A DNA stretch of 40,714 nucleotides, taken from contig NZ_JACBXC010000002.1 in NCBI RefSeq assembly GCF_013870535.1, forward strand, positions 1 to 40,714, in the 5' to 3' direction. Each line of letters begins with the position of its first letter. Position 1 is the stretch's first letter. This DNA is from Streptomyces phytophilus. Its GTDB lineage: Bacteria; Actinomycetota; Actinomycetes; Streptomycetales; Streptomycetaceae. This document shows positions 6,370 through 27,161 of this stretch, in pieces. The position numbers and the translations under genes are program-made. Below the pieces are notes generated by a model. The model was not told the DNA's origin. It did no database searches and worked only from the letters and a program-made list of their open reading frames with translations.

Positions 6370-6372
6370 GTG

Positions 6373-9240: not shown

Positions 9241-9294
9241 CCGGCTCCAGGGGATGTTCCGGAACTGGGCCGCTGAATTTCGAGGAGGATACCG

Positions 9295-10959
9295 GTGTCG
9301 ATGCCGCGCTTTGACCTGCGAGACGAGCCGTGGATCCCGGTGCGGTTCCGTGCCGGACAAGCCGATATGGCTCCGGTCTTGCCGTCTGCTGTCGGTTTGC
9401 GGGATCTCTTCCTGCGGGCGCATGAGATCGAGGACATCGAGCTGCCGGTGCCGCCGGCCGCGGCGGGGCTGTTGCGGATGCTGTACGCCATGGCGGCGCA
9501 CATCGCGCGCGACGGACAGACACCCCTGGCTGATGAGGAGTTGGCGGAGTTCCCGTCGGCGTGGCTGCAGGCACGCAACCGGGTCCTGGCGCGAGGGAGT
9601 TTCGACCCGGACAGCGTGCATGCCTACTTCGATGAGCCCTCGCGGGCGGATTGCTTCGATCTCTTCCACCCCGAGCGGCCGTTCCTCCAGGACCCGCGGC
9701 TGCGGCAGGAGTGCACGGACGTGAAGGGGGAGCCGAAGCCGTCCGGGGTGAACAAGCTGGCTTTTGGTCGCCCCACCGGTGCCAACGGGGCAGTGCTGTT
9801 CGGGCACTTCAGCGACCTGGAACCGGTCCCGATCCCTGCGGTCGAGGCGGTGCACTATCTGATCGGGCAGTTGTACTTCGGTGCGCCGGGGCGCTGCACG
9901 ACACGTCGCCTGGTGGGCATGGAAGCGGCGGTGAGCAAGGCGGGCCCGTTGCGGGCGGCGGTGTCTTTCCATCCGTGGGGGTTTGAGCTGTTCACCAGTC
10001 TGGTCCTGGGTATCCCTTCGTGCCCGGATCCGGAGCTGCTCGGGGAGGATGATGCCGCCGCGTGGGAGGAGGAGTTGCTGCCTCCGGCCGGCCCGCTGCC
10101 GAGCATGTCCTGGCCGGGGCGGCTGCTGACCGGACGGGCCCGGCACGCGGTGCTTCTGGTGCCCTCGTCCGACGGTTCGTCGGTGACGGACGCGTACGTG
10201 ACCTGGTCCAGTGATCAGCCAGCCTCGGGTGAGGAGGACCCGTATCTCGTCTACGACGGGCGGCCGAACCGCGAGGGTGAGTTCGTTGCGAGGCAGGCCG
10301 ATGTCACCCGCGCCGTGTGGCGTGATCTGGATGCGCTGCTGCGCAGGGGCCGGGGCCGGCCCGATTTCCGGCAGCCCTTGATCTTCGCGGATCTCGTCGA
10401 GGTGTCACCGCAGTTGCGCGACCAGGTGCGTGTGCGGGTGTACGGGTTCGACCAGGACAAGGCCCAGCAGAAGGACACCTCCTGGTACGTGGCGACCACC
10501 CCGCCGGTCCTCGGGTGGCTGGAGGAGGTGGACGCTCGGCAGGCCGTGCGGATCACCCAGTTCCGGGAGGCGGCCGAGGACCTTGGGCGCGCGCTGTCGT
10601 ACGCGGCTGTGCTCGCCTGGGCGACAGCCACGCAAATGCCCGACGACAAGGGCAAGTACAAGATCGACAGGCGGCGCCCCGGGCCCTGGCAGGCAACGGC
10701 CCTGACACGGTACTGGTCCGAGGCCGAGCGGCTCTTCTGGACCGGCATCGAAACCGGGCAGGACGCGGCCTGCGTGCGCGGTGACTTCACGCGGGCTGCC
10801 GAGGAGGCGCTGCGGGCCGCTGCGGGAACGGCCCACGCCGACCTCCACGTCGCTCGCGGCCTGCACCTGGCCCGCCGCAGCATCCGCAAGGCCGGAAGAA
10901 CCGGAAGGACCGTGCAACTGCCTGGCGATTTCCCTGACCGAGGAAGCGAGACCGATTGA
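9295..10959 (+). CDS. cse1: Cascade large subunit Cse1/Cas8e
   Basis: A protein of 554 residues. It is the large subunit of the type I-E Cascade complex, which reads the PAM and docks Cas3. The start has the family hallmark FDLRDEPWIPV, followed by GLRDLFLRAHEI, PPAAAGLLRMLYAMA and an FDLFHPERPFLQD segment. The PTGANGAVLFGHF stretch near residue 155 corresponds to the glycine-rich PAM-sensing loop region, and the C-terminal third is the expected helical bundle. GTG 9295 is preceded by a strong AGGAGG at about 9283-9288. The stop shares one base with the cse2 start (TGATG), so the two are coupled. Confidence 0.95.
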   Translation: MSMPRFDLRDEPWIPVRFRAGQADMAPVLPSAVGLRDLFLRAHEIEDIELPVPPAAAGLLRMLYAMAAHIARDGQTPLADEELAEFPSAWLQARNRVLARGSFDPDSVHAYFDEPSRADCFDLFHPERPFLQDPRLRQECTDVKGEPKPSGVNKLAFGRPTGANGAVLFGHFSDLEPVPIPAVEAVHYLIGQLYFGAPGRCTTRRLVGMEAAVSKAGPLRAAVSFHPWGFELFTSLVLGIPSCPDPELLGEDDAAAWEEELLPPAGPLPSMSWPGRLLTGRARHAVLLVPSSDGSSVTDAYVTWSSDQPASGEEDPYLVYDGRPNREGEFVARQADVTRAVWRDLDALLRRGRGRPDFRQPLIFADLVEVSPQLRDQVRVRVYGFDQDKAQQKDTSWYVATTPPVLGWLEEVDARQAVRITQFREAAEDLGRALSYAAVLAWATATQMPDDKGKYKIDRRRPGPWQATALTRYWSEAERLFWTGIETGQDAACVRGDFTRAAEEALRAAAGTAHADLHVARGLHLARRSIRKAGRTGRTVQLPGDFPDRGSETD

Positions 10960-11723
10960 TGCCCCCCGATCATGCCAACGCCTCACCCGACATGGCGACT
11001 CCTCCTGCCCCGTGGTCGGCTCCCCGCTTCGTACGCCAGGTGTCGATCTTGTGCATGAATGACACCAGGACGCGCGCGGATCTGCGGCGCGGGCTCGGCC
11101 GCCCGGTCGAGCAGTCCCACCAGGCCCACCGCCACCTGGTCCGGTTGCTGGACGATGACCCGCACCCCGCACTGCGGCAGGCCGCCTACGCCGTCGCCGC
11201 ACTGATCGCCGCCAGGCCCGTCCGAAGACAGGACCGTGAGGACAGCGACACCACCGAGACTACGGAAACCGAGACCGCCGACCCCGGCGCCTCCGAAGCA
11301 GGTGCCGAGGCGGCCGGCCCGGGCGATGCCGCCACCCCGCCCGAGGTATCCGAGGCAGGGGGGTTGTCCGGGACTGAGGCCGCGCGCCGGTACCGCAGCG
11401 ACAACCTCGGCGCGCACTTGGCCGCTGGGGTGAACGAGGGCGCTCTCGCTCCCGGTAGTGCCGAGGCGGAACTGCATCTGTATGCCCGGCAGAGTGCGGC
11501 CACCATCATCCACCGGCTTCCCTGCCTCATCCGTAACCTGACCAGCCAGGGCGTCGCTATCCACTGGCCCGTTCTCCTGGATGACCTGCGGTACTGGGAC
11601 AGCCGGCGGGACGTGATCGCCACCCGGTGGTTCGACAGCTACTTCCGCACCCTCGACTTCTCCGAGCCTTCCGAGTCCTCCGAAACTGCCGTCGACAAGC
11701 GCGAGACCCCCAAGGAGCCGTGA
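10959..11723 (+). CDS. cse2: Cascade small subunit Cse2/Cas11e with acidic insert
   Basis: A protein of 254 residues. It forms the helical belly of Cascade, present as a dimer in known complexes, and stabilises the displaced strand. The C-terminal core is recognisable: ARRYRSDNLGAHLAAGV, LYARQSAATIIHRLPCLIRNL and a VAIHWPVLLDDLRYWDS segment ending in WFDSYFRT. The N-terminal core has RFVRQVSIL and ADLRRGLGRPV. Between about residues 91 and 140 lies a low-complexity acidic Glu/Asp/Thr/Ala stretch that makes it longer than typical members of the family. ATG 10959 overlaps the cse1 stop, and TTG 10956 is less likely. The stop overlaps the cas7e start (TGATG). Confidence 0.92.
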   Translation: MPPDHANASPDMATPPAPWSAPRFVRQVSILCMNDTRTRADLRRGLGRPVEQSHQAHRHLVRLLDDDPHPALRQAAYAVAALIAARPVRRQDREDSDTTETTETETADPGASEAGAEAAGPGDAATPPEVSEAGGLSGTEAARRYRSDNLGAHLAAGVNEGALAPGSAEAELHLYARQSAATIIHRLPCLIRNLTSQGVAIHWPVLLDDLRYWDSRRDVIATRWFDSYFRTLDFSEPSESSETAVDKRETPKEP

Positions 11724-12904
11724 TGCCCCTCTTCCTGGACCTGCACGCCGTGCAGAGTGTGCCCGTAGCCAACCTCAACCGTGACGACCTGGGCTCGCCC
11801 AAGTCCGTCCGCTACGGCAACGCCAACCGGATCCGGGTCTCCAGCCAGTCCTGGAAGCGCGTGATCCGCCACGGCGTCGAGGAGGACCTGGGTGAGCGGG
11901 CCCGCCGTTCCCGTCTCGTGCCCCGGAAGGTCGCCGAAGCTCTGACCGGCGAGGGCTGGCCCGCCGACCTCGCGGACTTCGCCGGACGTCAGGTCGTCGC
12001 CGCCGTCGGGAAGAAGGGACTCGGTCTCGACGACGCCGGGCGGACGAACGTCCTGCTGTACGTGCCCGAAGCCGCGATCGGCGAACTGGCCGCCGTATGC
12101 ACCGAGCACCGGGCGGAGTTGGAGAAGGCAGCGGCGAGCAAGGCGAAGAAGCCCCCGCTCGTCCTCCCCTCAGAGATGGTGGAGGAGATCCTCAACCGGC
12201 GGACCGCTTCCATCAGCCTCTTCGGCCGGATGCTCGCCGAGCTGCCGGACTCCAAGGTCGACGGTGCCGCTCAGGTCGCCCACGCCCTCACCACCCATGC
12301 GAGCGAACCGCAGCGGGACTACTTCACCGCCGTCGACGACTGGCTCGGCGACTCCGAGACCGGCAGCGGCCACCTCAGCACCGCCGAGTTCAGCGCCGGG
12401 GTCTTCTACCGCTACGCCACGATCAACATCGACGACCTGAACAACAATCTCGCCGGGGACACCAAGGCCGCCCGAGAGGTGGTCGCTGCCTTCGCCGACC
12501 ACTTTCTCATGTCCCTCCCGCAGGCCAAGAGGACCAGCAGCGCCCCCCACACCCTGCCCGACCTCGCCTATCTCGCGGTCCGCGAACGGCGCCCGGTTTC
12601 CTTCGCCGCCGCCTTCGAGACCCCGGTCCGCGCTGACCAGGACGGCGGCTTCTCCGGCCCCTCCCGTACGGCCATGGATGCATACGCCCACGACATCACC
12701 CGCCTCATCGGCACCCGCCGGCTGCGCACGCACGGGCACAGCACCGTCAGCGCACGCGCGGGCGCGGGCCAGGACGACCCCGCTCACCTCGGGCAGCGGC
12801 ACGATTCCTTCGAAAGCCTCATCGACACGGCCGTCAACGCCCTCTTCGACACTACCGACACCGACAGCGGGGACAGTTCCGGCAGTGAGGCGGCCCGCGC
12901 GTGA
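11723..12904 (+). CDS. cas7e: Cascade backbone subunit Cas7e (Cse4/CasC)
   Basis: A protein of 393 residues. Six copies form the crRNA-binding backbone of type I-E Cascade. The sequence carries family landmarks: the LDLHAVQSVPVANLNRDDLG opening, RIRVSSQSWKRVIR, SISLFGRMLAE, and the STAEFSAGVFYRYATINID segment near residue 235, followed by a finger-like region. The tail is acidic (DTTDTDSGDSSG). ATG 11723 overlaps the cse2 stop, with AAGGAG at 11713-11718 as a clear ribosome site. The stop overlaps the cas5e start as GTGA. Confidence 0.95.
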   Translation: MPLFLDLHAVQSVPVANLNRDDLGSPKSVRYGNANRIRVSSQSWKRVIRHGVEEDLGERARRSRLVPRKVAEALTGEGWPADLADFAGRQVVAAVGKKGLGLDDAGRTNVLLYVPEAAIGELAAVCTEHRAELEKAAASKAKKPPLVLPSEMVEEILNRRTASISLFGRMLAELPDSKVDGAAQVAHALTTHASEPQRDYFTAVDDWLGDSETGSGHLSTAEFSAGVFYRYATINIDDLNNNLAGDTKAAREVVAAFADHFLMSLPQAKRTSSAPHTLPDLAYLAVRERRPVSFAAAFETPVRADQDGGFSGPSRTAMDAYAHDITRLIGTRRLRTHGHSTVSARAGAGQDDPAHLGQRHDSFESLIDTAVNALFDTTDTDSGDSSGSEAARA

Positions 12905-13659
12905 GCGGCCTGCTCCTGCGTCTGGCCGGGCCGCTGCAGTCCTGGGGCGAGCGCTCGGTGTTCACCCACCGCGACACCACGGCCTTCCCCACCCGCTCCG
13001 CGCTCACCGGCATGTTCGCCGCCGCCGAGGGACGGGACCGTACCCAGGATCCCGCCTACTACGCGGATCTGCGCTTCACCGTGCGCGTCGACCGCCCCGG
13101 CCTTCCGCTGACGGACTACCACACCGTCGGCGGCGGACTCCCGCCCCGCGAGACGCTCATCACCAGCGAGGGCAAGCACAAGGGCGCCGCCGTCGTCTCG
13201 CACCGCCAGTACCTCGCCGACGCCGTCTTCACCGTCGCGGTCACCGGCCCCGACGCCAGCGTGATGCGCATCGCCGAAGCCCTGGAACACCCCATCTGGG
13301 CGCCGTTCCTCGGGCGCCGCGCCTGCGTCCCGGACGAACCCCTGCTGCTGGCCGCCGGCCTCACCGACCCGGAGCAGGAACTGCTCACCAGCGTCCCCCT
13401 CAGCCCCGACGAAGCCCGCCGCGCCACCGGCGACACCGTGCACGTCACCTTCCTGTGGGACCGCACACCCCCGCACCGCCCCGAGACGGCCACCGCCCTC
13501 GACGTCGCCGACCAGCCCCTCAGCTTCCATCCGCACAACCGGCGCTACGGCCTGCGGCGCCTCTACCGCACCGAGGAACCGCTGCCCGCCACCCTCACCG
13601 CGCCCCGCGGCGAATTGCGTTCCCGCCTCCTGGACTACTGCCTTGGAGCCCTCGCATGA
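12901..13659 (+). CDS. cas5e: Cascade subunit Cas5e
   Basis: A protein of 252 residues. Cas5e caps the 5' handle of the crRNA in type I-E Cascade. Typical elements are LLLRLAGPLQSWGERS at the start, the FPTRSALTGMFAAAEG loop, DYHTVGGGLPPRETLIT, HRQYLADAVFTVAV near residue 100, and HPIWAPFLGRRACVP. The start is GTG 12901, which overlaps the cas7e stop by four bases. The stop overlaps the cas6e start as ATGA. Confidence 0.95.
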   Translation: MSGLLLRLAGPLQSWGERSVFTHRDTTAFPTRSALTGMFAAAEGRDRTQDPAYYADLRFTVRVDRPGLPLTDYHTVGGGLPPRETLITSEGKHKGAAVVSHRQYLADAVFTVAVTGPDASVMRIAEALEHPIWAPFLGRRACVPDEPLLLAAGLTDPEQELLTSVPLSPDEARRATGDTVHVTFLWDRTPPHRPETATALDVADQPLSFHPHNRRYGLRRLYRTEEPLPATLTAPRGELRSRLLDYCLGALA

Positions 13660-14333
13660 CCACACCGGCCACCACCACCGTCCCCACGGCGATGCTCGCC
13701 CGGATCCGGCTGAACCCGCACAGCAAGGACGTCCAACGCGACCTGCGCGACGCCCGCGAACTCCACCGCACCATGATGCGGTTGCTGCCCCCGAGCACCG
13801 ACGCAGACGCCCGCCAGGCCCACGGCCTCCTCTTCCGCCTGGAAACCGAACCGCACGCCACGCACATCCACCTCCAGGCCACCAGCACACTCCACCCCGA
13901 CCGGCTTCCGCCCCACTACGGCCACGCCCAGACCAAGGACCTCACCCCCATGTTCCGGGCGCTGCGCGACGGCATCGGCGTGCGCTACCGCATCGCCGCC
14001 AACCCCACCAAACGCACATCCCTCCCTCCCGCGGAGAAGGGCAAACGCGGCCCCGTCACCCCCCTCACCGGCGCCGAAGCCGACCAGTGGTGGCTACGCC
14101 AGGCCACCAAAGCCGGCCTCCACCTCCACACCTTGCTGCCCACCCCGCTGCCGCCGGCCCGCCGCCCCCGGGGCAAGGACAACCGCCCCCAGATGCGGCA
14201 CAGCCTCATCCGGTTCGACGGCACCGCCACCGTCACAGACACCGAAGCCCTCACCCACGCCGTCCTCACCGGCATCGGCCGCGGCAAACCCTACGGCGCC
14301 GGCCTCCTCAGCCTCGCCCCCGCACCCACCTGA
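13656..14333 (+). CDS. cas6e: CRISPR repeat endoribonuclease Cas6e
   Basis: A protein of 225 residues. It cleaves pre-crRNA at the base of the repeat hairpin and stays bound to the 3' handle. It shows a ferredoxin-like opening (AMLARIRLNP), the N-terminal catalytic histidine expected at H37 in ARELHRTMMRL, LLFRLETE near residue 65, and the C-terminal glycine-rich loop GIGRGKPYGAGLLSLAP. ATG 13656 overlaps the cas5e stop. An 18-base gap separates it from cas1e. The GC-rich hairpin of the adjacent repeats is its expected substrate. Confidence 0.94.
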   Translation: MTTPATTTVPTAMLARIRLNPHSKDVQRDLRDARELHRTMMRLLPPSTDADARQAHGLLFRLETEPHATHIHLQATSTLHPDRLPPHYGHAQTKDLTPMFRALRDGIGVRYRIAANPTKRTSLPPAEKGKRGPVTPLTGAEADQWWLRQATKAGLHLHTLLPTPLPPARRPRGKDNRPQMRHSLIRFDGTATVTDTEALTHAVLTGIGRGKPYGAGLLSLAPAPT

Positions 14334-14351
14334 CGACAGGACCGCGCCGCG

Positions 14352-15329
14352 ATGAACCCCGGCCCCTCCACCCACCAGGCCCGCGCCCGCCTCGCCGCCC
14401 CCACCCTCGCGATGCTCCCGCGTGTCGCCGACTCGCTGTCCTTCCTGTATCTGGACATCGTCCGCGTCGTCCAGGACGACACCGGCGTCTGCGCACAGAT
14501 CCAGACCCCGCGCGGCACCGACACCGTCTACATCCCCACAGCCTCGCTGTCCTGCCTGCTACTGGGCCCCGGAACTTCCGTCACCGCCCGCGCCCTGGCA
14601 ACCCTCGCCCGGCACGGCACCACCGTGGTCGTCACCGGCTCCGGCGGCGTGCGCACCTACGCCGGAATCCAACCCGAATCCCTCTCCACCCACTGGCTCG
14701 AACACCAAGCCCGCGCCTGGGCCAACGAGACCAGCCGCCTGGACGTCGCCGTCCGGATGTACGAACACCGCTTCCACGAGGACGTCCCCGACGGCACCAC
14801 CCTGGACACCCTGCGCGGGATGGAAGGCCAGCGCATGAAGTCCCTCTACCGCCTCCTCGCCCAACAGCACGGCATCGGACGCTTCCGCCGCAACTACCGC
14901 CCCGACCAGTGGGAGGACCAGGACCCCGTCAACCTCGCCCTCTCCGCCGCCAACACCTGCCTCTACGGCATCGCCCACGCCGCGATCCTCGCCATGGGCT
15001 GCTCTCCCGCCCTCGGCTTCGTCCACAGCGGAAAACACCACGCCTTCCTCTACGACATCGCCGACCTCTACAAGGCCGAGACCACCATCCCGCTCGCCTT
15101 CTCCCTCCACGCCTCCACCAACCCCGAACGCGACGCTCGCCTCCGGCTCCGCGACGGCCTCCGCCTCTTCAAGCTCCTGCCACGGATCGTCACCGACATC
15201 CAGGCCCTCCTGAACCCAGCAGCCGACGAAGAACCCGACCAGGAACGACACGCCGTCGACATAGTCCACCTGTGGGACCCCAAGTCCGGCACCCTGCCCG
15301 CCGGAACCAACTACGCCCAGGGCCGGTGA
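14352..15329 (+). CDS. cas1e: CRISPR adaptation integrase Cas1e
   Basis: A protein of 325 residues. With Cas2 it integrates new spacers at the leader end. Metal-binding residues can be placed: E158 in RGMEGQRMK, H225 in GFVHSGKHH and D238 in LYDIADLYK. The E-to-H and H-to-D spacings (67 and 13) equal those of E. coli Cas1 (E141, H208, D221), so the active site looks intact. The start is ATG 14352. It is followed by cas2e after 7 bases. The identical repeats at the leader end fit recent adaptation activity. Confidence 0.96.
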   Translation: MNPGPSTHQARARLAAPTLAMLPRVADSLSFLYLDIVRVVQDDTGVCAQIQTPRGTDTVYIPTASLSCLLLGPGTSVTARALATLARHGTTVVVTGSGGVRTYAGIQPESLSTHWLEHQARAWANETSRLDVAVRMYEHRFHEDVPDGTTLDTLRGMEGQRMKSLYRLLAQQHGIGRFRRNYRPDQWEDQDPVNLALSAANTCLYGIAHAAILAMGCSPALGFVHSGKHHAFLYDIADLYKAETTIPLAFSLHASTNPERDARLRLRDGLRLFKLLPRIVTDIQALLNPAADEEPDQERHAVDIVHLWDPKSGTLPAGTNYAQGR

Positions 15330-17712: not shown

Positions 17713-17783
17713 TGCACTTATGGGCCTTTCGTATGAGGCCAGCTTGCCGCCTACGTCCTGATCATGTTCCGTCTCGGTTGCTA

Positions 17784-18941
17784 CTGAACTTGAATCTGTG
17801 ATGTCGGTTAGCCGTTGATGGTCAGGCCGGTGCCGGCGAGGCAGCCGTCGACTACGTCGGGGCGGTACTGAATCTGCTTCAGCTTGCGCCTGACTGCGCG
17901 GGTTACTTGGGAGAGGTCGGCAGCCGCGAGGTTGCCTATCTCGCGCTTGACCAACGACCAGATGCCTTCCTGGGGGTTGAGGTCGGGTGTGTAGGTGGGC
18001 AGGTGGAAGACGGTGAGCCAGTCGGCATTTGCCTCGATGAAGTCCCGCATGCCACGGGTGAGGTGGAGGCGGACGTTGTCCCAGACCAGGACGATCGGGC
18101 CGCCGAGCTGGATCCTGGCCCTCACGAGCAGGCGGCAGACGTCTTTCCAGCCGAAGCCCTTGGGTTCGTCCTTGCGGCCCCGGTACTCGCGCAACCCGTA
18201 GATCAGCCGCGACCTGGATCCGGGCCTAAAACAGCACATGCCCATCATGGACAGACGGCCGCTGCCCCGGCTGCGGACCCTGACCACCGGCGTGCGGCCG
18301 ACCCTGCCCCAGGTCCTGACCCTCGGCGGTGTCATCGACTGACCCGCCTCGTCCTCGAAGGCGATCCACGCGCCCCGGGCCGCGGCCTCTCTTTTACCCG
18401 GGGCCAGACCTCCTTCTTCCACAGCTCGACCGCCTCATCGTCCCGCTCGATCGCCCGCCGAGCGGGCTGCTGCCAGGACCAGCCATGCCTCTTCAGCAGC
18501 AGCCACGTGCCCTCGACCGTGTACGAGACGTGGAACAGCCGCCCGATCACCGTCTTGATCCTCGCCAGTGTCCACCGCTGATCCGGCCAGCCATGGGCCA
18601 GCGGTCCACGCTCAAGCTCCCGCTCCAGACGTTCCATCTGGCCCGGCCCCAGCCGTGGGCGGCCCGGCGACCCCTTCGACAGGACCCCGGCCTCACCCCT
18701 CTCCCGCCACGACTTCCGCCAGCGCTCCACCGACCGCTCCGACACGCGTAACGCGGCAGCGATGCCCTTGTTCTTCTCTCCGCGTTCGAAGCGCTCCACG
18801 GCCTGCAGCCGTACCCGCTCCCGCGCGGCCCTCCCAGCGTCGGACAGTCCGCCGCCCTGCGCGTATCTCACCCGCACAGACCTACCGGATCCACCCCTCA
18901 ACTGCCAGGCCGACGAACCGACATCACCCAATCAAGTTCAG
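17784..18941 (-). mobile_element. IS630-family insertion sequence, 1158 bp
   Basis: The ends are inverted repeats that begin CTGAACTTGA. The left end (17784 onward) and the reverse complement of the right end (to 18941) agree over about 24 bases with a few mismatches. Both ends are bounded by TA (17782-17783 and 18942-18943), the target duplication typical of IS630/Tc1-mariner elements. The element contains one reverse-strand transposase in two overlapping frames. It sits 38 bases from the left end of the ISAs1-like unit. Confidence 0.88.
17808..18877 (-). CDS. IS630-family transposase, two frames joined by probable -1 frameshift
   Basis: The first frame starts at a GTG near 18877 and runs to 18332. 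It carries the helix-turn-helix part: RVRLQAVERFERGEKNKGIA, RVSERSVERWRKSWRERG and then PDQRWTLARIKTVIGRLFHV. The second frame ends at 17808 and holds the DDE domain: D in IAFEDEAGQS, D in IVLVWDNVRLHL and E in PDLNPQEGIWSLVKRE. Reverse-strand GTAAAAGAG, at about 18388-18397, offers a slippery AAAAG. Slipping back one base joins WPRVK to REAAARGAWIAFEDEAG without loss, so the product may be whole. Two-frame expression is known in the IS630 family. Plain inactivation is the alternative. Confidence 0.85.
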
Positions 18942-19073
18942 TAGTGATCAGCAGCCCGTATGAGTGGTGGGCTGACCTGCAGGGCTTCGTCGTTCTCGCG
19001 TGATGTCCGGTTCGTGATCATGCTGTGAGCTAAATCACGTGTCATGACTGGTGTTTGATGTGAGACTGCGGGA

Positions 19074-19976
19074 GTGATCGAAGTACCGGACGCCGTGCGG
19101 AACAAGGTTCGCGCTGCCGGTGTCGAAGACTGGCTTGAGCGCCTGCCCGCGCTTGTCACGAGCCTTGAGGCTGACTGGTCGATCATCGTGGGGCGCCCGT
19201 ACACGGGCGGGTCCGAGGCATTCGTGGCCGAAGCGACCCGGGCGGACGGAGCCTCAGCGATTCTCAAGGTGCTGGTGCCAGGCGTGGGGAACGGCTCCTC
19301 CAACGAGGCGATGGTGCTCCGCATTGTTGGAGGAGAAGGATGCCCGGCGCTTTACCGATATGACGCCGACCGGGGTGCCCTGCTCATGGAACGACTGGGG
19401 CGGCCGATGTTCGAGCTCGGCCTACCGCTCTCGCGTCGTCTTGAGATTCTCTGTGATACCGCAGCGCGCATCTGGCGTCCGGCGCTGGACTGTGGGCTGC
19501 CCACCGGTGCCGAGAAGGCCCGGTGGCTCGCCGACTTCATTGCGAGGTTGTGGGAGGAACTCGATCACCCCTGTTCCGAGAAGGCGGTCGAGCAGGCCCT
19601 CGTCTCGGCCCGACGGCGGGAGCGAGCGCACCGCGACGAGAGAGCCGTATTGGTCCACGGCGATGTGCACCAACTGAACGCGCTTCAGAGCGATGGCGGC
19701 TTTAAGCTGGTCGATCCGGACGGTCTCCTTGCGGAGGCCGAGTACGACCTGGGTGTCCTGATGCGTGGAGACCCGGTCGAGCTGCTCGCTGGTGACCCCT
19801 TCGAGCGGGCCCGTTGGCTGGCCGCCCGGACGGGTCTTGATCCCGTGGCCACCTGGGAATGGGGCGTGATCGAGCGGGTGTCGACGGGACTGCTCTGCAC
19901 GCAGATTCATCTTCAGCCTCTCGGCAGGGACACGCTCCGGGCAGCGGAGGCCGTCGCTGGTTTGTCGATGTCGTAG
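19074..19976 (+). CDS. Aminoglycoside/hydroxyurea phosphotransferase family kinase, APH(6)-like
   Basis: A protein of 300 residues, the normal length for the APH_6_hur family that includes streptomycin 6-phosphotransferases and hydroxyurea phosphotransferase. Visible parts are the nucleotide-binding lobe with SAILKVLVPG (the ATP lysine) and GSSNEAMVLRIV, the hinge segment GALLMERLG, the catalytic loop VLVHGDVHQLNAL with D197, and the metal-binding KLVDPDGLLAE. It would phosphorylate a small hydroxylated antibiotic in the cytoplasm. The exact substrate cannot be read from the sequence. GTG 19074 is the start, with no strong ribosome site. The gene lies 64 bases inside the left repeat of the ISAs1-like unit, converging on the transposase pseudogene. 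Confidence 0.85.
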   Translation: MIEVPDAVRNKVRAAGVEDWLERLPALVTSLEADWSIIVGRPYTGGSEAFVAEATRADGASAILKVLVPGVGNGSSNEAMVLRIVGGEGCPALYRYDADRGALLMERLGRPMFELGLPLSRRLEILCDTAARIWRPALDCGLPTGAEKARWLADFIARLWEELDHPCSEKAVEQALVSARRRERAHRDERAVLVHGDVHQLNALQSDGGFKLVDPDGLLAEAEYDLGVLMRGDPVELLAGDPFERARWLAARTGLDPVATWEWGVIERVSTGLLCTQIHLQPLGRDTLRAAEAVAGLSMS

Positions 19977-20071
19977 GTGCTCGGCGAGGAGTGTCCCTGA
20001 CCGCCGGATGGAGGCACTGTGTCCGGCCGCCCGGTATCCGGCAATAGCGGGCGGTACGAGGCAGGTCTGTG

Positions 20072-21255
20072 TTTAGGTGAGGCCGAATGTGGTCACGGCG
20101 CGTGTGGCGTCTCGGCTGTTGTGGCGTAGGGCGGCGGCGATGTTGGTGACGCCGTTGAGCTTCAGGGCGCCGATGGCGAGGTTGCGCCAGGTCGCCATCA
20201 CGCGACGTGCGTTGCCGGTGCGGAGTTGGGAGGCGTCCTCGGCGAAGTCGTGTCTCGCATGTGGTGGAGAGCTTCGATCTTCCAGTGGCCGCGGATCAGG
20301 GCCGCGAGCTGGGCAGGAGCGGCCTGGTGGGCGGCGAGGTTGGTGACCGCGTAGACGGTTTTCACCGTGGTCTTCCCGGTCTTGGGGTGGGTGCGGCGGC
20401 GTTTGAGCTGCAGGGCCTGGGCGGCGTGTGGAAAGAGCAGGCCGTTCACCGTGACGACCTTGAGCCGGCGGATCTCGCGGCGTCCGTGTCCGGTGTCGCG
20501 GGTGCGGTCCTGGAGCGGGATCTCGGCCCAGGGCAGCGCGCCCAATTGCGCGTGGAGCTTCTTCTGGTTGCCCTTCACGATCACGATGTAGTGGGCTCTG
20601 TGGCGGCTGACCAGGTATTCGGCGTGCTCGCGTTGGGTGTGCAGGGCGTCGGAGGTGACGACCGTCCCGGTCAGATCGATGTCGTCCAACAGCGGTTGGA
20701 ACAGGGCCACTTCGCTTTGCTTCTCACCGACATCAAGCTGGGCCAGAACCACTGAGGCGGCATGTTCGACGGCGGCCAGCAGGTGGATCCGGCGGTCGTG
20801 CGGCTTGGCTGCACCACGCAGGCTCTTGCCGTCCACCGCCGCGGCCTGCAGCCCGGTGCCCGCAGCGGGACAGTGGTCGGCGAGCCAGGCACCCACCGCG
20901 CGGTCGAGGGCGTCGGCGTCGATGCGCGCCAGCAGGCGGCGGATCGACGCTTCCGAGGGGACGGGCATTCGCCGGTGAACGGATCACGCACACCGCCCAG
21001 CGCGGTCCGCACGGGGGCGGGGGTGTCGGCCGCCCACTCCGCGATGGCCAGCAGTGATCGCGCACCGGCCAGCACGGCCGCCGCACTCAGGGCGAGCACG
21101 TACACGGCGGCATGCCGCAGTCCGCGCGCCGCGCGCGGGTCGGGTACCTGAGCCAGCCGCTGAAGGAGTCCGGCCCGCTCATCGGGCGTGACCGGCGGCT
21201 GGTCACGTAACTGGCCAAGGGCAGTGCCTACTTGAGAGGATGCGTCTGCAGGCAT
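20072..21255 (-). pseudogene. ISAs1-family transposase, broken by two frameshifts
   Basis: The reverse-strand pieces in order are an N-terminal segment from about 21255 (LLQRLAQVPDPRAARGLRH, AAVLAGARSLLAIAEWA, DPFTGE), a main segment ([61 protein letters not shown], then [18 protein letters not shown]) and a C-terminal segment readable only in another frame ([17 protein letters not shown], ending TFGLT at 20072). The frame changes near 20965 and again near 20250, where one T appears to be missing from a TTC codon. The DDE residues are present but no continuous protein can be made, unless these are sequencing errors. Confidence 0.85.
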
Positions 21256-21428
21256 GGACTTCCGTAGCGATCACGGGACGTAGACACTCACATGATCACG
21301 GATGGTCTTGCCTGCACTCGTTCAGCCCCCCACCACCCCAACCATCGGCAAGCCGGACATCACGCGAGAACGACGGAGCCCTGGGCTGACCTGCGGGTTC
21401 TGTAGATCATCACGCAGTAGCACCCGCG

Positions 21429-24400
21429 CTAGGCGTTCATGTCATCGCCCTGCGTACTGGAGAGGGGGAGGGTTCCGTTTCGCTGGAGGAGACTTAGCGC
21501 CTGCAGCATCTCGGTCTCTTCTGCCCCAGAGTTGATCTTGCGACTCAGAGCAAGGCCGGCCCTGAGGTGCCCCCGGGCCTGGGCGAGACGTCCGGTGGCC
21601 GCTTCCGCCTCACTCAAGGCGCGAAGGGCCTGGCACTCCTCCAGCGCGGCACGGATGGTGCGGGCGATGGTCAGCGCAGCGGTGTGGTGAGGGAGCGCCT
21701 GCTCGCTGCGGCCCGCAGCATGGAGTGCTTGGCCGATCCCGATGTGTGCGATGGCCTCACTGCGGCGGTCGCCGGCGCTGCGTAACGCCGGAAGCACCTT
21801 GTCGTACAGTCCCAGCGCCTCCTCCGGTCTTCCATGCCTGCACAGTGTGTCGGCGAGGTTCATCTGGAGGATGGCGTACTGCCCGGTGCCGACCGGGGCC
21901 TGAGAAAGGCTGATCGCCTGCCGGTAGGAACCGATGGCGCTGTCCAGATTGCCTGCTTCCTTGTGCAGTTCCGCCAGGTTGTGGACGGCGATGAACTGTC
22001 CGCGTTGGTCACCGATATCGCGGAAGCGCGCGCGGCCTTCGAGGAAGTATTTCAAGGCATCTTTGTGGCGCTCGAGACGAAGGCAGATCATTCCCAGGAG
22101 ATTGTAACTCCTGCCTTGTTGGAGGCGATCCGTTCCGGCCAGCCGCAGCCGCAGTGCGCGTTGTTGGAGGTTCAGGGCATCGGTGTGCCGGGCGGTATGC
22201 CAGCAGGTGATGGACTGCTGGTGAAGGGCTTCGGCTTCCAGTTCTTCGTCACCGGCCGCCTGGGCAAGTTCCAGGGCTTTCCTGGCGCTATCGAGCGCTT
22301 CGTCGTAGTGGCCGGCGCCAGCACAGACACCCGCGAGATCGATCAGAGCGCGACCGTGAGCTGCGCTCTCCCTTGTGGTCTGCCAGTAGGCAACGGCCGC
22401 TCGGAGAAGGGGAGTTGCGGTGCTGAGGTAGCCCTCGCCGCTCATGAAGCCGGCCAGCGTGTGGGTGAGCAGAGCCGACTGCCGCGGGGAGCCGTGAGCG
22501 CGGGCGTATTCGAGTGCGGCCAGCAGGCTGGGCCCTTCGGCGGTGAACCACTGCTGAGGGTTGTGCCGGACCGGCGGCGTTGTGGCGTGGGCGGGCAGGG
22601 CGATGCGCAGGCGGTGGGGATAGGCACGCCGGTCGGCCCGGTCAGCGGTGTGCAGATAGTGGTGAATCAGCCGGGCAAGCGCGTGCTGGTTCTCGGATGC
22701 TGCATCCTCTTCGGCGAGGGTCGAGGCGTACTCGCGTAGCAGGTCGTGCAGGCGGTATCGGTGGGGAGCGGGTTCGAAGATCAGGCAGCAGGCCAGCAGT
22801 TCCTCCAGCACATGCTCGGCCTCTTCCCAAGGGAGGCCGGTCAGTGCGGCTGCGGCTTCGGGACTGAACTCAGAACCTATGTGCAGGCCGAGTCGGCGGA
22901 AGACCTTCTGCTGCGTGGGGGTGAGTGCCCGGTAGGAGACCTCAAGCGCGGACGCCATCGCATCGTTGTGGTCACGGATTTCGGGTAGACGCCGACGTGC
23001 CCGGTTGAAGCTGTCCATCAGGTCGGAGACCCGCCACGCTGGTCGGGAGAGCAGACGTCTGGCGATGAGAGTCAATGCGAGAGGGAGGTCGCCGCACAGT
23101 CGGGCCAAGGTCGCCGCTTCCTCTGTGCCGGGGTTCCGTTCTTCGTTATCGAGTAGGCGTTGAAGAAGAGCGACGGCATCCGTGCGGGGCAGGATATCCA
23201 ACGCGAGGTGCTGAACGCCGGGGAGACCTGTCAGCCGATGACGGCTTGTGATGAGGATGAAAGGGGAGGAGTCCCCGGGCAGTAGTGGGGTGACCTGCTC
23301 TGCGCTGGCGGCATCGTCGAGGACGGCGACGAACCGGCGCCCTCGTACCGTGGTTCGCCACAGAGCGATGAGGCCGTTGAGGTCCTGGGGGAGGGCTGCC
23401 GGCGGAATGCCGAGGAGACGCAGCAGTTCACCGAGGGCCTCGGCTGAGCTCATGGGGGCCTGGTGGGGAGCGTGACCGCGCAACTCGAGGAAGAGCCGCC
23501 CGTCGGGGAAGTGCTCGCGCAGTTGGTGGGCTGCGTGGACGGCTAGCGCGGTCTTCCCCGAACCGGGCATGCCGGTCACTGCGGCCGCAGTGACACCTGT
23601 GCTGCCGGGCTCCTCCACTGTGCTGGCCAGCATCCCAGTCAGCCGCTCCAGTTCAGCCTGGCGGCCCACCCACGGCACATCAGGGGGCAGAGTCTCAGGC
23701 ACGAGTGCGGGACAGGCGGGGGAGGAGGCTGAGGGCAGCAGCGCAGCGACCGGTGTCCGGGCCAGAATGCCGCGGTGAATGTGCTGGAACTCGGCGCCGG
23801 GCTCGGCGCCCGATTCCCGCAGGATGTGTTGCCGCGTGCGCTGCAGTAAGCGGCTGGCTGCCTCAGTCCGTCCGCATCCGTGGAGGGCGAGGGCGAGTTG
23901 ACTGGCAACAGATTCATCCGCTGGCTCACGCTCCGCAAGAGGCTGTAGGCCGGTGACGGCTTCTGCGTAGTGCCCCAGGCGCACGGCGACATCCGCCTGA
24001 AGCCGGGCGGTGGTCAGGTTTCTCTCCTCGACGAAGCTGCGCAGCTGTGCGGCCCAGGTTCCGGGCAGCCCCGCCAGAGGTTCACCGCCCCATAATCGGG
24101 AGGCCTCCTGCACCGCAGCGAGAGCTTCCCTGTCGCTGCCGCCATCAGCCAGCCAGCGAGCCTGGTCGAGAAGAGTCAGGTACCTGCGCAGATCGACTGT
24201 ATCCGGATCGGCCTGCAGCGTGTAGGTGTGCGAGTTGTTGGTGATGGTGGGCCCGTGTGGGCCGGCCAGGGCCGACAGCATTTTGCGAATGTGGTGGAGG
24301 TGCACATATAGCGCCTCGCGTGGCTTCGCAGGTGGGTGATCGTCCCAGACCCGGTGGACGAGAGTGTCCACGCTCACCGTCCGGCCGGCATCCCACGCCA

Positions 24401-24500
24401 AGGCGGCCAAGGTGAGCCGTTCCTTCGGTGCCTTGAGCACGGCGCGTTCTTCTCCGGCCCGTAACTCGACTGCGCCAAGCAGCAGTATGCGGAGTTCCAC
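21429..24500 (-). CDS. SARP-family regulator with NB-ARC NTPase and TPR domains (AfsR-like)
   Basis: A protein of 1023 residues from GTG 24500, which has GGAGGG 6 bases upstream. GTG 24548 would add 16 residues. Domains in order: an OmpR-like winged helix (residues 1-85, RILLLGAVELRAG, KAPKERLTLAALAWDAGRTV, REALYVHLHHIRKML); a bacterial activation domain to about 250 (VDLRRYLTLLDQARWLADGG, LATALH-like helices); an NB-ARC NTPase with P-loop TGMPGSGKTALAVHAAHQL near 310 and RRFVAVLDDAAS Walker B; a winged-helix segment; and a long TPR array (AHGRALIDLAGVCAGAGHYD, GRSYNLLGMICLRLERHKDA). AfsR-type proteins activate antibiotic or differentiation genes. No biosynthetic cluster is visible beside it. 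It is divergent from the STAND gene at 24732. Confidence 0.9.
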   Translation of the reverse strand: MELRILLLGAVELRAGEERAVLKAPKERLTLAALAWDAGRTVSVDTLVHRVWDDHPPAKPREALYVHLHHIRKMLSALAGPHGPTITNNSHTYTLQADPDTVDLRRYLTLLDQARWLADGGSDREALAAVQEASRLWGGEPLAGLPGTWAAQLRSFVEERNLTTARLQADVAVRLGHYAEAVTGLQPLAEREPADESVASQLALALHGCGRTEAASRLLQRTRQHILRESGAEPGAEFQHIHRGILARTPVAALLPSASSPACPALVPETLPPDVPWVGRQAELERLTGMLASTVEEPGSTGVTAAAVTGMPGSGKTALAVHAAHQLREHFPDGRLFLELRGHAPHQAPMSSAEALGELLRLLGIPPAALPQDLNGLIALWRTTVRGRRFVAVLDDAASAEQVTPLLPGDSSPFILITSRHRLTGLPGVQHLALDILPRTDAVALLQRLLDNEERNPGTEEAATLARLCGDLPLALTLIARRLLSRPAWRVSDLMDSFNRARRRLPEIRDHNDAMASALEVSYRALTPTQQKVFRRLGLHIGSEFSPEAAAALTGLPWEEAEHVLEELLACCLIFEPAPHRYRLHDLLREYASTLAEEDAASENQHALARLIHHYLHTADRADRRAYPHRLRIALPAHATTPPVRHNPQQWFTAEGPSLLAALEYARAHGSPRQSALLTHTLAGFMSGEGYLSTATPLLRAAVAYWQTTRESAAHGRALIDLAGVCAGAGHYDEALDSARKALELAQAAGDEELEAEALHQQSITCWHTARHTDALNLQQRALRLRLAGTDRLQQGRSYNLLGMICLRLERHKDALKYFLEGRARFRDIGDQRGQFIAVHNLAELHKEAGNLDSAIGSYRQAISLSQAPVGTGQYAILQMNLADTLCRHGRPEEALGLYDKVLPALRSAGDRRSEAIAHIGIGQALHAAGRSEQALPHHTAALTIARTIRAALEECQALRALSEAEAATGRLAQARGHLRAGLALSRKINSGAEETEMLQALSLLQRNGTLPLSSTQGDDMNA

Positions 24501-24731
24501 CAGCGACCCTCCCGCCGGTACGGCACGTCCGTGGGTCGAGGATGACACGAGCCATACACCCTGGCCACGTCCCGCTCACAGGAGGTCCGAAACCCTCCCA
24601 GCGGACGCCCCTTCGTTCCATGTACAGGCGCCTCGGGTAGAGGGCATCAGGAAAGCAGGCGGCCGTCGAAACGCCGCTGCATGTGCCCACGCGTGAGGTG
24701 ATGGGTAAGGCTGACCCCTGGGAGGAGCACC
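24501..24731. promoter_or_regulatory. Divergent promoter region between two NTPase regulators
   Basis: This 230-base gap separates the start regions of the SARP and STAND genes and must hold both promoters. A GGGAGGAG ribosome site for the rightward gene lies at 24720-24727. No clear hexamers or SARP-type heptamer repeats were picked out by eye. Confidence 0.45.
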
Positions 24732-27161
24732 GTGCGCGAAACAGAGATGGCAGCGGCACTGTTATCGGCCATGATTTCCAGCACTCCGCTGGAGAGATCA
24801 CCGGCCGGACAGGTCCTGCACCGGCTGGTCCACACCCACTCCGAACCCCACGGGCAACTTCTCCGGCAGTGGGAAGAAGCCTGCCGGACCGAGGCACCCC
24901 ATCCCGCGCTCCTGCAGCTGTCGAACTCCCTGGCACGCCACGCCACCACCGATGCCGCATGGAGAACCGGGCTCGAGAACTGGCTGCATCACCACCCACC
25001 CGAGCCTCAGGCAACAGCCAACCGCATCGACGGCTCAGCTCACCTGCACGGTCCCACCATCCAAGCCGGGTCCATCCACGGCAACGTGCACTTCCACCAC
25101 ACAGACCCAACCCCCATCCCCACGCAACAGTTGGTGCCCCGTCAACTCAGACCCTCACCCGCCCACTTCACCAACCGCACCAAAGAGCTGCATGACCTGC
25201 ACCGCATCGCCGACTCCCGAAAAGTCCAGGAAGGCCCCGCGCTGGCAGTCGTCTTCGGCCCCGGCGGAGTGGGCAAGACCGCACTGGCACTGCGGTGGCT
25301 GCACGAGACGGCCGATCACTATCCCGACGGCCAGCTCTACGCCGACCTCACCCCAGCCCCCGCGGGAGAACCGGCAGCACCCAACTCGGTCCTGGGAGGG
25401 TTCCTCCGAGCCCTGGGAGTAGCAGGAGAACACATCCCTGCCGAAGCGGAAGAGACCGCCGCCCTCTTCCGTTCCCTCACCGTCAACAGCCGCATCGCCA
25501 TCCTGCTGGACAACGCTGCCACCGCCGGCCAGGTGCGCGCACTGCTGCCCTCCTCATCATCAAGCACCGTCGTGGTGACCACACGGTGGCGCCTGGGCGG
25601 TCTGAGCATGGACGGTGCCGACTTCATCCCCGTCACCCCGTTGCAGCAGCAAGCCGGCACAGAACTGCTGACCCGGACCGTGGGCGAACGCCGCACAGCA
25701 GCAGAAACCGACGCCGTGGCTGGCCTGGTGGGCTTATGCGCCGGACTCCCCATCGCCCTGTCCATCGCAGCAGCACGGCTGGTGACACGCCCTCAGTGGC
25801 CCATCGCCCGGATCGTGCAGGAACTGGCCGACGAACAACGACGGCTCAAAGCCCTGGCCATGGAGGAGATCACCGTTCTGAGCGTCTTCGACCTCTCCTA
25901 CGACGGACTGCCACCGCAAACAGCCCGCGCCTACCGGTGGCTAGGCCTCCACCCCGGACCGGATCTCTCCCTCAACGCCGCCGCAGCAGCACTGCAGCAC
26001 TCCCTCGAGGACACCACGGCACTACTGGAGAACCTGATAGACGCCAGCATCCTGGAAGCCACCGGCCCCGACCGCTACCACTTCCACGACCTTGTCCGCC
26101 TCCACGCCCGCCACCGCGCCCAAAAGGAAGACAGCCCCCACACCCGCAACGCCGTCATCCGACGTCTCCTGGAGCACTACCTCGCTTTCGCCGCGGCCGC
26201 CGCCCAGACGGTGACACCCCAAGAGCGGCACCTCGGTCCTGACCGCCAACCCACCCAGACCTCACCGGTCTTCGCCACCAGCCAGGAAGCACTCAAGGCA
26301 CTGGAGACCGAACTACCCAACCTTATGGCAGCAATGCGGACCGGCTACGAACACAGACTCGACACCCTCGTATGGCAACTGGCCGAGGCGCTGTGGCCGC
26401 TGTTCCTTCACCACAAGCACTTCCCCGACTGGATGGCCACCTACCAGCTCGGTATCGACGCCACGACCCGCTGCAACGACTCCGCCGCCCGCGCACGCAT
26501 GCACCACCACCTCGGCTTCGCCTTCCACAACCTCAACCGCGCCAAAGAAGCCCTCGTGCAAGGAAAACGCTCCCTGGCCGCGGCACGCGAAGCCGGCCAC
26601 GACGAGACCGAGGCAGAAGCAGTGGGGCTCCTCGGCATGGCACACCGCTCGCTCGGCCACCTCGACGACGCCATCGACATGCAGCAACAAGCAGTGGCAC
26701 TGGAGCACCGGGCCGGACGAGCACGAGGAGAAGCGCTCGCCCGGCGGCGGCTCGGCCAAGCGCTCAGTACCGCAGGTCGGCTGGATGAAGCGGTCGATCA
26801 GCTCACCCGAGGCCGCGACCTGGCGGAGTCACTGTCCGACCACAAGGTCAAAGCGATGACCATGGTCTGGCTCGCCGACGCGCTCACGCGCAGTGGCCGC
26901 GCCGACAAGGCAGCCGCCGTTGCCCGGGATGCCTGGTCGCTCCTCGCTGAATCGGGCTCCAGCCAATACCAGGCCCAAGCACTGATGGTGTGGGGTGAAG
27001 CCGCCGAAGCGCTCAAGGAACCGGCGACCGCCCACAACCTTCTGATCCGATCACGCGCCTCTTACCTGGACGTCGGCGCCTCCAACCTGGAACGGGTCAA
27101 CCGCGCAATCGAGAGAGTGCAAGCACAGCTGAACGACCCTTCTCACCCCTCCTCCCTGTGA
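24732..27161 (+). CDS. STAND/NB-ARC NTPase with TPR repeats and RHIM-like N-terminal motif
   Basis: A protein of 809 residues. Residues 1-90 are a small helical region. Near residues 100-120 is the motif HLHGPTIQAGSIHGNVHFHH, which resembles the RHIM-like or pseudopalindromic amyloid signalling motifs found ahead of bacterial NLR-like proteins. The NTPase follows (P-loop VVFGPGGVGKTALAL near 180, RIAILLDNAATAGQV Walker B, STVVVTTRW, LCAGLPIALSIAAARL). Next come a winged-helix linker (VLSVFDLSYDGLPPQTARAY) and TPRs (ARMHHHLGFAFHNLNRAKEA, EAVGLLGMAHRSLGHLDDAI, GEALARRRLGQALSTAGRLD). It lacks the SARP DNA-binding domain, so it is more likely a signalling or immunity NTPase than a promoter-binding regulator. 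GTG 24732 has a good ribosome site. The 3' end overlaps an antisense gene. Confidence 0.88.
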   Translation: MRETEMAAALLSAMISSTPLERSPAGQVLHRLVHTHSEPHGQLLRQWEEACRTEAPHPALLQLSNSLARHATTDAAWRTGLENWLHHHPPEPQATANRIDGSAHLHGPTIQAGSIHGNVHFHHTDPTPIPTQQLVPRQLRPSPAHFTNRTKELHDLHRIADSRKVQEGPALAVVFGPGGVGKTALALRWLHETADHYPDGQLYADLTPAPAGEPAAPNSVLGGFLRALGVAGEHIPAEAEETAALFRSLTVNSRIAILLDNAATAGQVRALLPSSSSSTVVVTTRWRLGGLSMDGADFIPVTPLQQQAGTELLTRTVGERRTAAETDAVAGLVGLCAGLPIALSIAAARLVTRPQWPIARIVQELADEQRRLKALAMEEITVLSVFDLSYDGLPPQTARAYRWLGLHPGPDLSLNAAAAALQHSLEDTTALLENLIDASILEATGPDRYHFHDLVRLHARHRAQKEDSPHTRNAVIRRLLEHYLAFAAAAAQTVTPQERHLGPDRQPTQTSPVFATSQEALKALETELPNLMAAMRTGYEHRLDTLVWQLAEALWPLFLHHKHFPDWMATYQLGIDATTRCNDSAARARMHHHLGFAFHNLNRAKEALVQGKRSLAAAREAGHDETEAEAVGLLGMAHRSLGHLDDAIDMQQQAVALEHRAGRARGEALARRRLGQALSTAGRLDEAVDQLTRGRDLAESLSDHKVKAMTMVWLADALTRSGRADKAAAVARDAWSLLAESGSSQYQAQALMVWGEAAEALKEPATAHNLLIRSRASYLDVGASNLERVNRAIERVQAQLNDPSHPSSL

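Follow-up and report, generated by a model that had tools for sequence, protein, structure and literature searches.

The window analysed here, a 40,714-nucleotide stretch of DNA from Streptomyces phytophilus, contains a 2,404-bp unit (18980-21383) that is very probably a transporter IS (tIS) of the ISAs1 family in which a kinase gene is carried as a passenger. Its terminal inverted repeats (TIRs), its target duplication and the spacing of its parts together point to one ISAs1 unit holding about 1.05 kb of foreign DNA. One insertion is known, and the kinase would move with these ends.

Anatomy of the element

The 31-bp TIRs that bound the unit lie at 18980-19010 (plus strand) and 21353-21383 (minus strand); they match at 30/31 positions, and their similarity ends beyond bp 31. 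On either side stands a perfect copy of a 10-bp target duplication, GGCTGACCTG, at 18970-18979 and 21384-21393 (neither assigned a strand), and this 10-mer occurs at only these two places in the window, both flanking the element. The earlier note had described 31-bp terminal repeats with one mismatch and a perfect 10-bp duplication enclosing both the kinase gene and the transposase, and this description was confirmed. A seeded scan of the window found no other inverted 31-mer pairs matching at 28 or more of 31 positions besides register shifts of the TIR pair; among the next-best pairs, at 27/31, were the ends of a neighbouring IS630-like element and, near 16.25 kb, a short hairpin.

Element bp 1 to ~46 (18980-19025, plus strand) form an ISAs1 left end, to which the left ends of other ISAs1 copies (L081, L082, L084 and L085) match over 41-46 bp. 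The passenger block follows at element bp 51-1010 (19030-19989, plus strand) and is homologous, with 92% DNA identity, to a stand-alone kinase locus of Glycomyces amatae (L034, 3957-4916); the corresponding homology to a genome of the same genus, G104, covers element bp 72-1004. The junction between the ISAs1 left end (bp 1-41/46) and the kinase homology (from bp 51) is located within ~5-10 bp. Within the block lies an intact kinase gene (19074-19976, plus strand), which has a GTG start and encodes a 300-aa protein of the APH_6_hur family with an HGDVHQLN motif. About 80 bp of unassigned DNA (19990-20071, no strand) separate the end of the passenger homology from the stop of the transposase, a pseudogene at 20072-21255 on the minus strand, so that the kinase gene is convergent with the transposase gene and on its 3' side. 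The left-end match and the limits of the kinase homology thus define a block of ~1.05 kb, bounded by the ISAs1 left end on one side and by the transposase stop on the other. A promoter and terminator scan returned one promoter-like site, on the minus strand, and zero terminators.

Spacing was measured as the distance from the transposase match to the near element end. In the window element these distances are 1,096 bp on the 3' side of the transposase and 128 bp on the 5' side, compared with 39-44 bp and 115-132 bp, respectively, in ten plain ISAs1 relatives from the same genus. A further plain element, L089, has 56 bp (3' side) and 131 bp (5' side), and the more distant plain elements L132, L150, L153 and L162 have 25-40 bp (3') and 156-328 bp (5'), some of these matches being partial. 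The transporter IS reading put forward in the earlier note therefore holds on the ends, the duplication and the spacing.

The surroundings of the element include other features. At 17781-18944, 25 bp to the left of the target duplication, is an IS630-like element, bounded by 34-bp inverted repeats (85%) and with a transposase split over two overlapping ORFs. To the right are two large NB-ARC/TPR proteins, encoded at 21429-24548 (with a BTAD regulator domain) and 24732-27161. Farther to the left, a CRISPR array of ~41 repeats with a spacing of mostly 61 bp occupies 3663-6131, beside a cas set at 6370-15329 (Cas3, Cse1, Cse2, CT1975, CRISPR_assoc and Cas1 by Pfam); we take this CRISPR-cas locus to be type I-E.

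The transposase and family membership

The larger piece of the transposase ORF scored 146.8 bits against the NCBIfam model transpos_ISAs1 (NF033564; cut-off 70). The coding sequence runs through three successive minus-strand frames (21255-20956, 20965-20246 and 20246-20079) and is thus interrupted twice, near 20.96 and 20.25 kb, as the earlier note had read it. The source genome is a draft (6.9 Mb, 1,772 contigs, 82% complete), so either break may be a sequencing error. With its transposase broken, the window copy could probably move only through a matching transposase acting in trans.

ISAs1 elements duplicate about 8-10 bp of target DNA. The window element combines the transposase score given above with an exact 10-bp duplication and CAGGG-type TIRs that align to the termini of other ISAs1 copies, which places it in this family. 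Between its single TIR pair are the kinase ORF and one transposase, the arrangement of a transporter IS; a composite transposon has two full IS copies flanking its cargo, and only one transposase is present here.

The kinase cargo

The kinase matches Pfam APH_6_hur (PF04655) with E=4e-16 and 59.6 bits (cut-off 27). Like the APH(6)-I streptomycin kinases, it matches this family and, weakly, the APH(6)-I model, and it contains HGDxxxxN and DPDG, which we take to be APH-type motifs, with HxDxxxxN presumably catalytic. It differs from them in scoring 41.9 bits against the APH(6)-I model (NCBIfam NF012171), whose cut-off is 325, and is not an APH(6)-I enzyme. The passenger had been described as a resistance-type gene; the membership of an APH-type family stands, but resistance is unproven. 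Residues H195, D197, N202 and D214 are invariant in 20/20 rows of an alignment made without L044, L062, L053, L054, L056, L059, L063, L039, L041, L052, L057, L060 and L061.

The nearest relatives of the kinase, with 92-93% protein identity, are in another genome of the same genus and in Glycomyces, and the next, near 80% identity, are in metagenome-assembled actinobacteria. The dN/dS of the window kinase (0.14 against L034 and 0.20 against L080) indicates that the gene is under purifying selection. At L034 and L005/L080, the loci of the closest kinase genes, the gene is free-standing: no ISAs1-type end turned up there in a TIR scan covering 64 loci, and inspection by eye of the ORFs listed around them revealed no transposase. 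Among the matches listed from 294 other genomes of the genus there is at least one carrier (G104), and none was seen among 393 other genomes of the class, a set that partly overlaps that of the genus. These searches scored two candidate stretches per genome, and the genus matches are those listed, so the carrier counts are lower bounds; carriers look rare in these sequence sets. Seven plasmid records have related kinases, all below 60% identity and the best-ranked at 35.8%, and protein and end-pattern searches confirmed no copy of the kinase on viral contigs.

A sequence search of the PDB with the kinase returned nothing at 1e-3 and, with E up to 10, three weak matches to an unrelated ligase. 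The structure model is middling (mean pLDDT 72.3, with residues 189-227 and 229-237 below 50). Its best Foldseek matches are a putative fructosamine-3-kinase, a putative aminoglycoside kinase and methylthioribose kinases, the top five at no more than 17% identity. Because of the model quality, the fold search says only that the protein is an APH-like kinase and gives no pointer to its substrate. We consider it fairly likely that the passenger is a metabolic small-molecule kinase of APH-like fold and not a resistance gene: it falls far short of the APH(6)-I cut-off, the matches to its predicted fold include fructosamine-3-kinase and methylthioribose kinases (none of them close), and the neighbours of two loci, L034 and L080, offer no resistance setting. 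The Pfam match to APH_6_hur argues against this, as does the near-identity of the gene in the window, the same-genus genome and Glycomyces, which, with few other carriers, fits horizontal spread.

ISAs1 elements of the same genus

We surveyed 79 transposase-matching stretches, taken from part of a ranked match list, together with L081-L085. Of 85 sequences (these 84 loci and the window), 79 matched the transposase over 450 bp or more, with 87 such matches altogether. Elements were delimited where the two ends were alike at 17 or more of 30 bases and were flanked by an exact duplication of 8-11 bp. This yielded 16 distinct ISAs1 elements, all with duplications of 10 bp. Of these, 12 (1,734-4,724 bp), the window element among them, are loaded with extra DNA; a further element of 2,479 bp contains two transposases, and the remaining three, of 1,347-1,389 bp, are plain. 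The earlier note had regarded a passenger in ISAs1 as exceptional; the window unit is indeed loaded, but with 12/16 delimited elements of the genus, this one included, holding extra DNA the exceptional status did not survive. The proportion is not a frequency of loading, because loci were sampled by similarity and a long element that lacks a duplication is easily missed. One locus, L087, is a 100% identical inverted copy of L088 and was treated as lying at the opposite end of one linear chromosome.

Two controls were applied to the delimiting rule. Among 400 flank-swapped chimeras there was one match (8-bp duplication, 17/30), and a test with 92 anchors across 23 unrelated loci produced 12 matches, which fell at one place in each of three loci (17-18/30; one 10-bp duplication), so the loose threshold lets some chance matches through. 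All survey elements have ends alike at 21/30 or better except L162 (18/30, plain), and the controls gave none at that level.

An exact duplication is retained by only three of 15 plain elements, and L089 keeps 9/10 bases. Plain elements with good ends, mostly without an exact duplication, are L089, L091, L092, L094, L096, L105, L107, L114, L117, L132 and L150. Unlike the plain ones, most of the loaded elements found keep their duplication, in a search that is biased.

Several arrangements were not counted as passengers. L095 (3930-6408) has two ISAs1 transposase genes on opposite strands within one pair of ends and an exact 10-bp duplication, and was set aside for its two transposases. In L155 (3960-7266), at a contig end, a peptidase-like ORF lies between ends alike at 30/30, together with a partial second transposase; judged by eye, this is a possible composite ISAs1 transposon and was left out as a two-IS arrangement. 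L120, L137, L140 and L156 have ends without a duplication and were likewise not counted.

Passengers of sibling elements

The passengers identified by Pfam are an MFS pump with a MerR regulator in L103; an MmyB-like regulator, an alpha/beta hydrolase and a cupin in L106; a DUF2975 protein in L112; a Cro/C1-type HTH protein in L134; a TetR regulator with an alpha/beta hydrolase in L142; and a lectin-domain protein in L154. L157 carries a passenger as well. The passenger of L139 (3432-3908) has no Pfam family and a PADLOC match to DarG (1.1e-9); no obvious partner gene is on the ORF list of this element. No Pfam family was assigned to the ORFs tried in L009 (the L090 element) and L020, and an ORF of L015 (the L097 element) matches Imm49 below the cut-off. 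The extra DNA of L090 and L109, ~510 bp, may not be a gene. A conserved 241-257-aa passenger (L007 703-1476, L033 2287-3060, L006 2731-3456 and L168 2761-3510) is carried by ISAs1 elements in a number of Streptomyces genomes and plasmids; three copies scanned (L006, L007 and L033) had no Pfam match and one had no PADLOC match.

Movement and recurrence of loaded elements

Three loaded types recur at full length at different sites. L100 and L103, in two genomes of different species, share 99.7% identity over 3,682 bp within unrelated flanks; L100 lacks a target duplication, 8/10 bases being different. L090 and L109 are 92.8% identical over their full length and are flanked by two different exact duplications. 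The element with the 257-aa passenger is found in G046, G049 and G109, and exact duplications that differ from one another flank it in L116, in NZ_CP109191.1 (2,172 bp, CAATCCAACG) and in NZ_CP108366.1 (2,168 bp, CCACGCGTGT). As far as sequence comparison goes, these recurrences show that loaded sibling ISAs1 elements move as whole units. Five plasmid stretches were also considered: L168 and L169 have exact duplications and the layout of the 257-aa type, L167 (equivalent to L100) lacks a duplication and L170 lacks clear ends. L171 has an exact duplication and was not counted, since its transposase end lies in a second place.

A transposase DNA tree was built from 31 rows (16 loaded, 15 plain), without L087, L095, L100, L120, L137, L140, L155, L156 and all loci lacking a clear element. 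The loaded label changes nine times on this tree, at least seven of the changes being forced by well-supported branches, and the count does not distinguish gains from losses. Compared with shuffled labels, 111 of 500 of which gave counts as low, the loaded label shows no clear excess of clustering. Cargo types follow clades, with three DUF2975/HTH-type elements grouping at 100/98 support. The window transposase sits on a long branch (0.31, median 0.075) as sister to the MFS and MerR element, on a branch with 85/84 support that is not starred.

Origin of the unit

The ends and the duplication are observed; the events behind them can be proposed. A segment of ~1.05 kb, comprising a free-standing APH(6)/HUR-type kinase gene and its near upstream DNA, would have inserted into an ordinary ISAs1 of ~1.35 kb, at a point which, from the anatomy, lies after the left end and before the transposase stop. 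By recognition of both 31-bp ends, an ISAs1 DDE transposase would then have carried the 2,404-bp unit to its present site, duplicating 10 bp. Two frame breaks would later have decayed the transposase while the kinase frame stayed open.

Searches for a second copy of the element found none elsewhere in its own genome, and none was seen among 294 other genomes of the genus (DNA, matches listed) or 393 others of the class, two candidate stretches being scored in each. The earlier note had proposed searching for both ends as a pair; among 391 other genomes of the genus this end pattern gave no second copy, only single ends in G118, G160 and G342 and two widely separated ends in G253. Neither plasmids (DNA and protein searches) nor viral contigs (protein and end-pattern searches) yielded a second instance of the kinase within ISAs1 ends, and the own-genome, genus and class searches found no sibling with an intact transposase and the kinase as cargo. 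Empty sites, also proposed for comparison, were not found: a search with the right flank in 60 other genomes gave only short or weak matches, the best being 107 bp at 79%. With no second copy, empty site or kinase-bearing sibling, we infer co-mobility of the kinase and the ends from the end anatomy and from the sibling elements.

Two other histories would produce a similar structure. In one, which we judge unlikely, the kinase recombined into an ISAs1 already fixed at this site and never transposed with it, in keeping with the single known copy and the now broken transposase. Against such recombination in place, sibling loaded ISAs1 elements move as units, and the target duplication is perfect despite the long branch of the transposase (0.31 vs a median of 0.075), a feature that leaves the order of events unsettled. 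In the other, the kinase originally lay in a composite transposon between two ISAs1 copies in direct repeat, of which deletions left only the 46-bp end of the left copy and a right copy without its own left end. In its favour, an ISAs1-type left end occupies bp 1-46, one transposase remains, and L155 has a two-copy arrangement around its peptidase-like ORF. This history is very improbable: it needs two separate deletions meeting the kinase block within a few bases, a TIR scan allowing up to nine mismatches found no remnant end between the kinase and the transposase, and the right side retains the normal 128-bp spacing. We therefore judged a decayed composite transposon a weaker account than a transporter IS that took up the kinase and carried it here.

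Relation to known elements and significance

In the accessible parts of the sources cited here, ISAs1 elements are given a length range of 1,200-1,500 bp (table in PMC7371123), and the one member listed in PMC6305408, ISArsp11, has 1,306 bp, the left inverted repeat CAGGGCTGATGCAAAGTCG, a 10-bp direct repeat and zero passenger genes. The window element resembles such ISs in ends that start with CAGGGCT, a 10-bp target duplication and an ISAs1-type DDE transposase; it differs in its broken transposase and in its length of 2,404 bp, which exceeds the range of PMC7371123 because of the kinase insert. ISs with passengers are established, again in the parts of the sources covered, in the IS481, ISL3, ISNCY and IS1202 families (PMC6305408, PMC10132070), with ISArsp12 (IS481) and ISPst2 (ISL3) (PMC6305408) and ISKpn21 (IS1202) (PMC10132070) as examples. 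Like the window element, these three have one transposase and one or more passenger genes within one IR pair. Within the same partial coverage, the window element differs from them in belonging to ISAs1 and in its kinase cargo, which lies 3' of the transposase and convergent with it. Paracoccus marcusii reportedly has a mosaic element made of ISPmar4 (ISAs1 family) and an IS1247a-driven module; compared by title only, as cited in PMC9330008, PMC3281130 and PMC4447125, it is similar in joining an ISAs1-family element to foreign DNA and different in combining ISAs1 with another transposable module.

That title apart, the portions covered of PMC6305408, PMC7371123, PMC9330008, PMC5756416, PMC9208149, PMC3281130, PMC10132070, PMC11092175, PMC10886379, PMC4447125 and PMC4072520 describe no passenger inside ISAs1, ISfinder and most of the subscription literature lying outside this scope. 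Transporter ISs are known as a kind; within the literature covered, in part and with ISfinder outside it, an ISAs1-family member with kinase cargo would be new.

On balance, Streptomyces ISAs1 elements are probably a general, unrecognised gene-capturing vehicle, with repeated independent uptake of genes on either side of a single transposase and carriage as one unit between genomes, chromosomes and plasmids. The cargo of such a vehicle would plausibly comprise the kinase, the MFS pump with MerR, hydrolases with regulators, and DUF2975, HTH, macro-domain-like and lectin-domain proteins. The plain and loaded elements listed here make cargo uptake by plain ISAs1 testable. If ISAs1 elements regularly carry regulators, pumps and antibiotic-kinase-like genes, annotation that ends at 'ISAs1 family transposase' overlooks their cargo, and these elements would offer the genes of antibiotic-producing bacteria a short, simple route to mobility.
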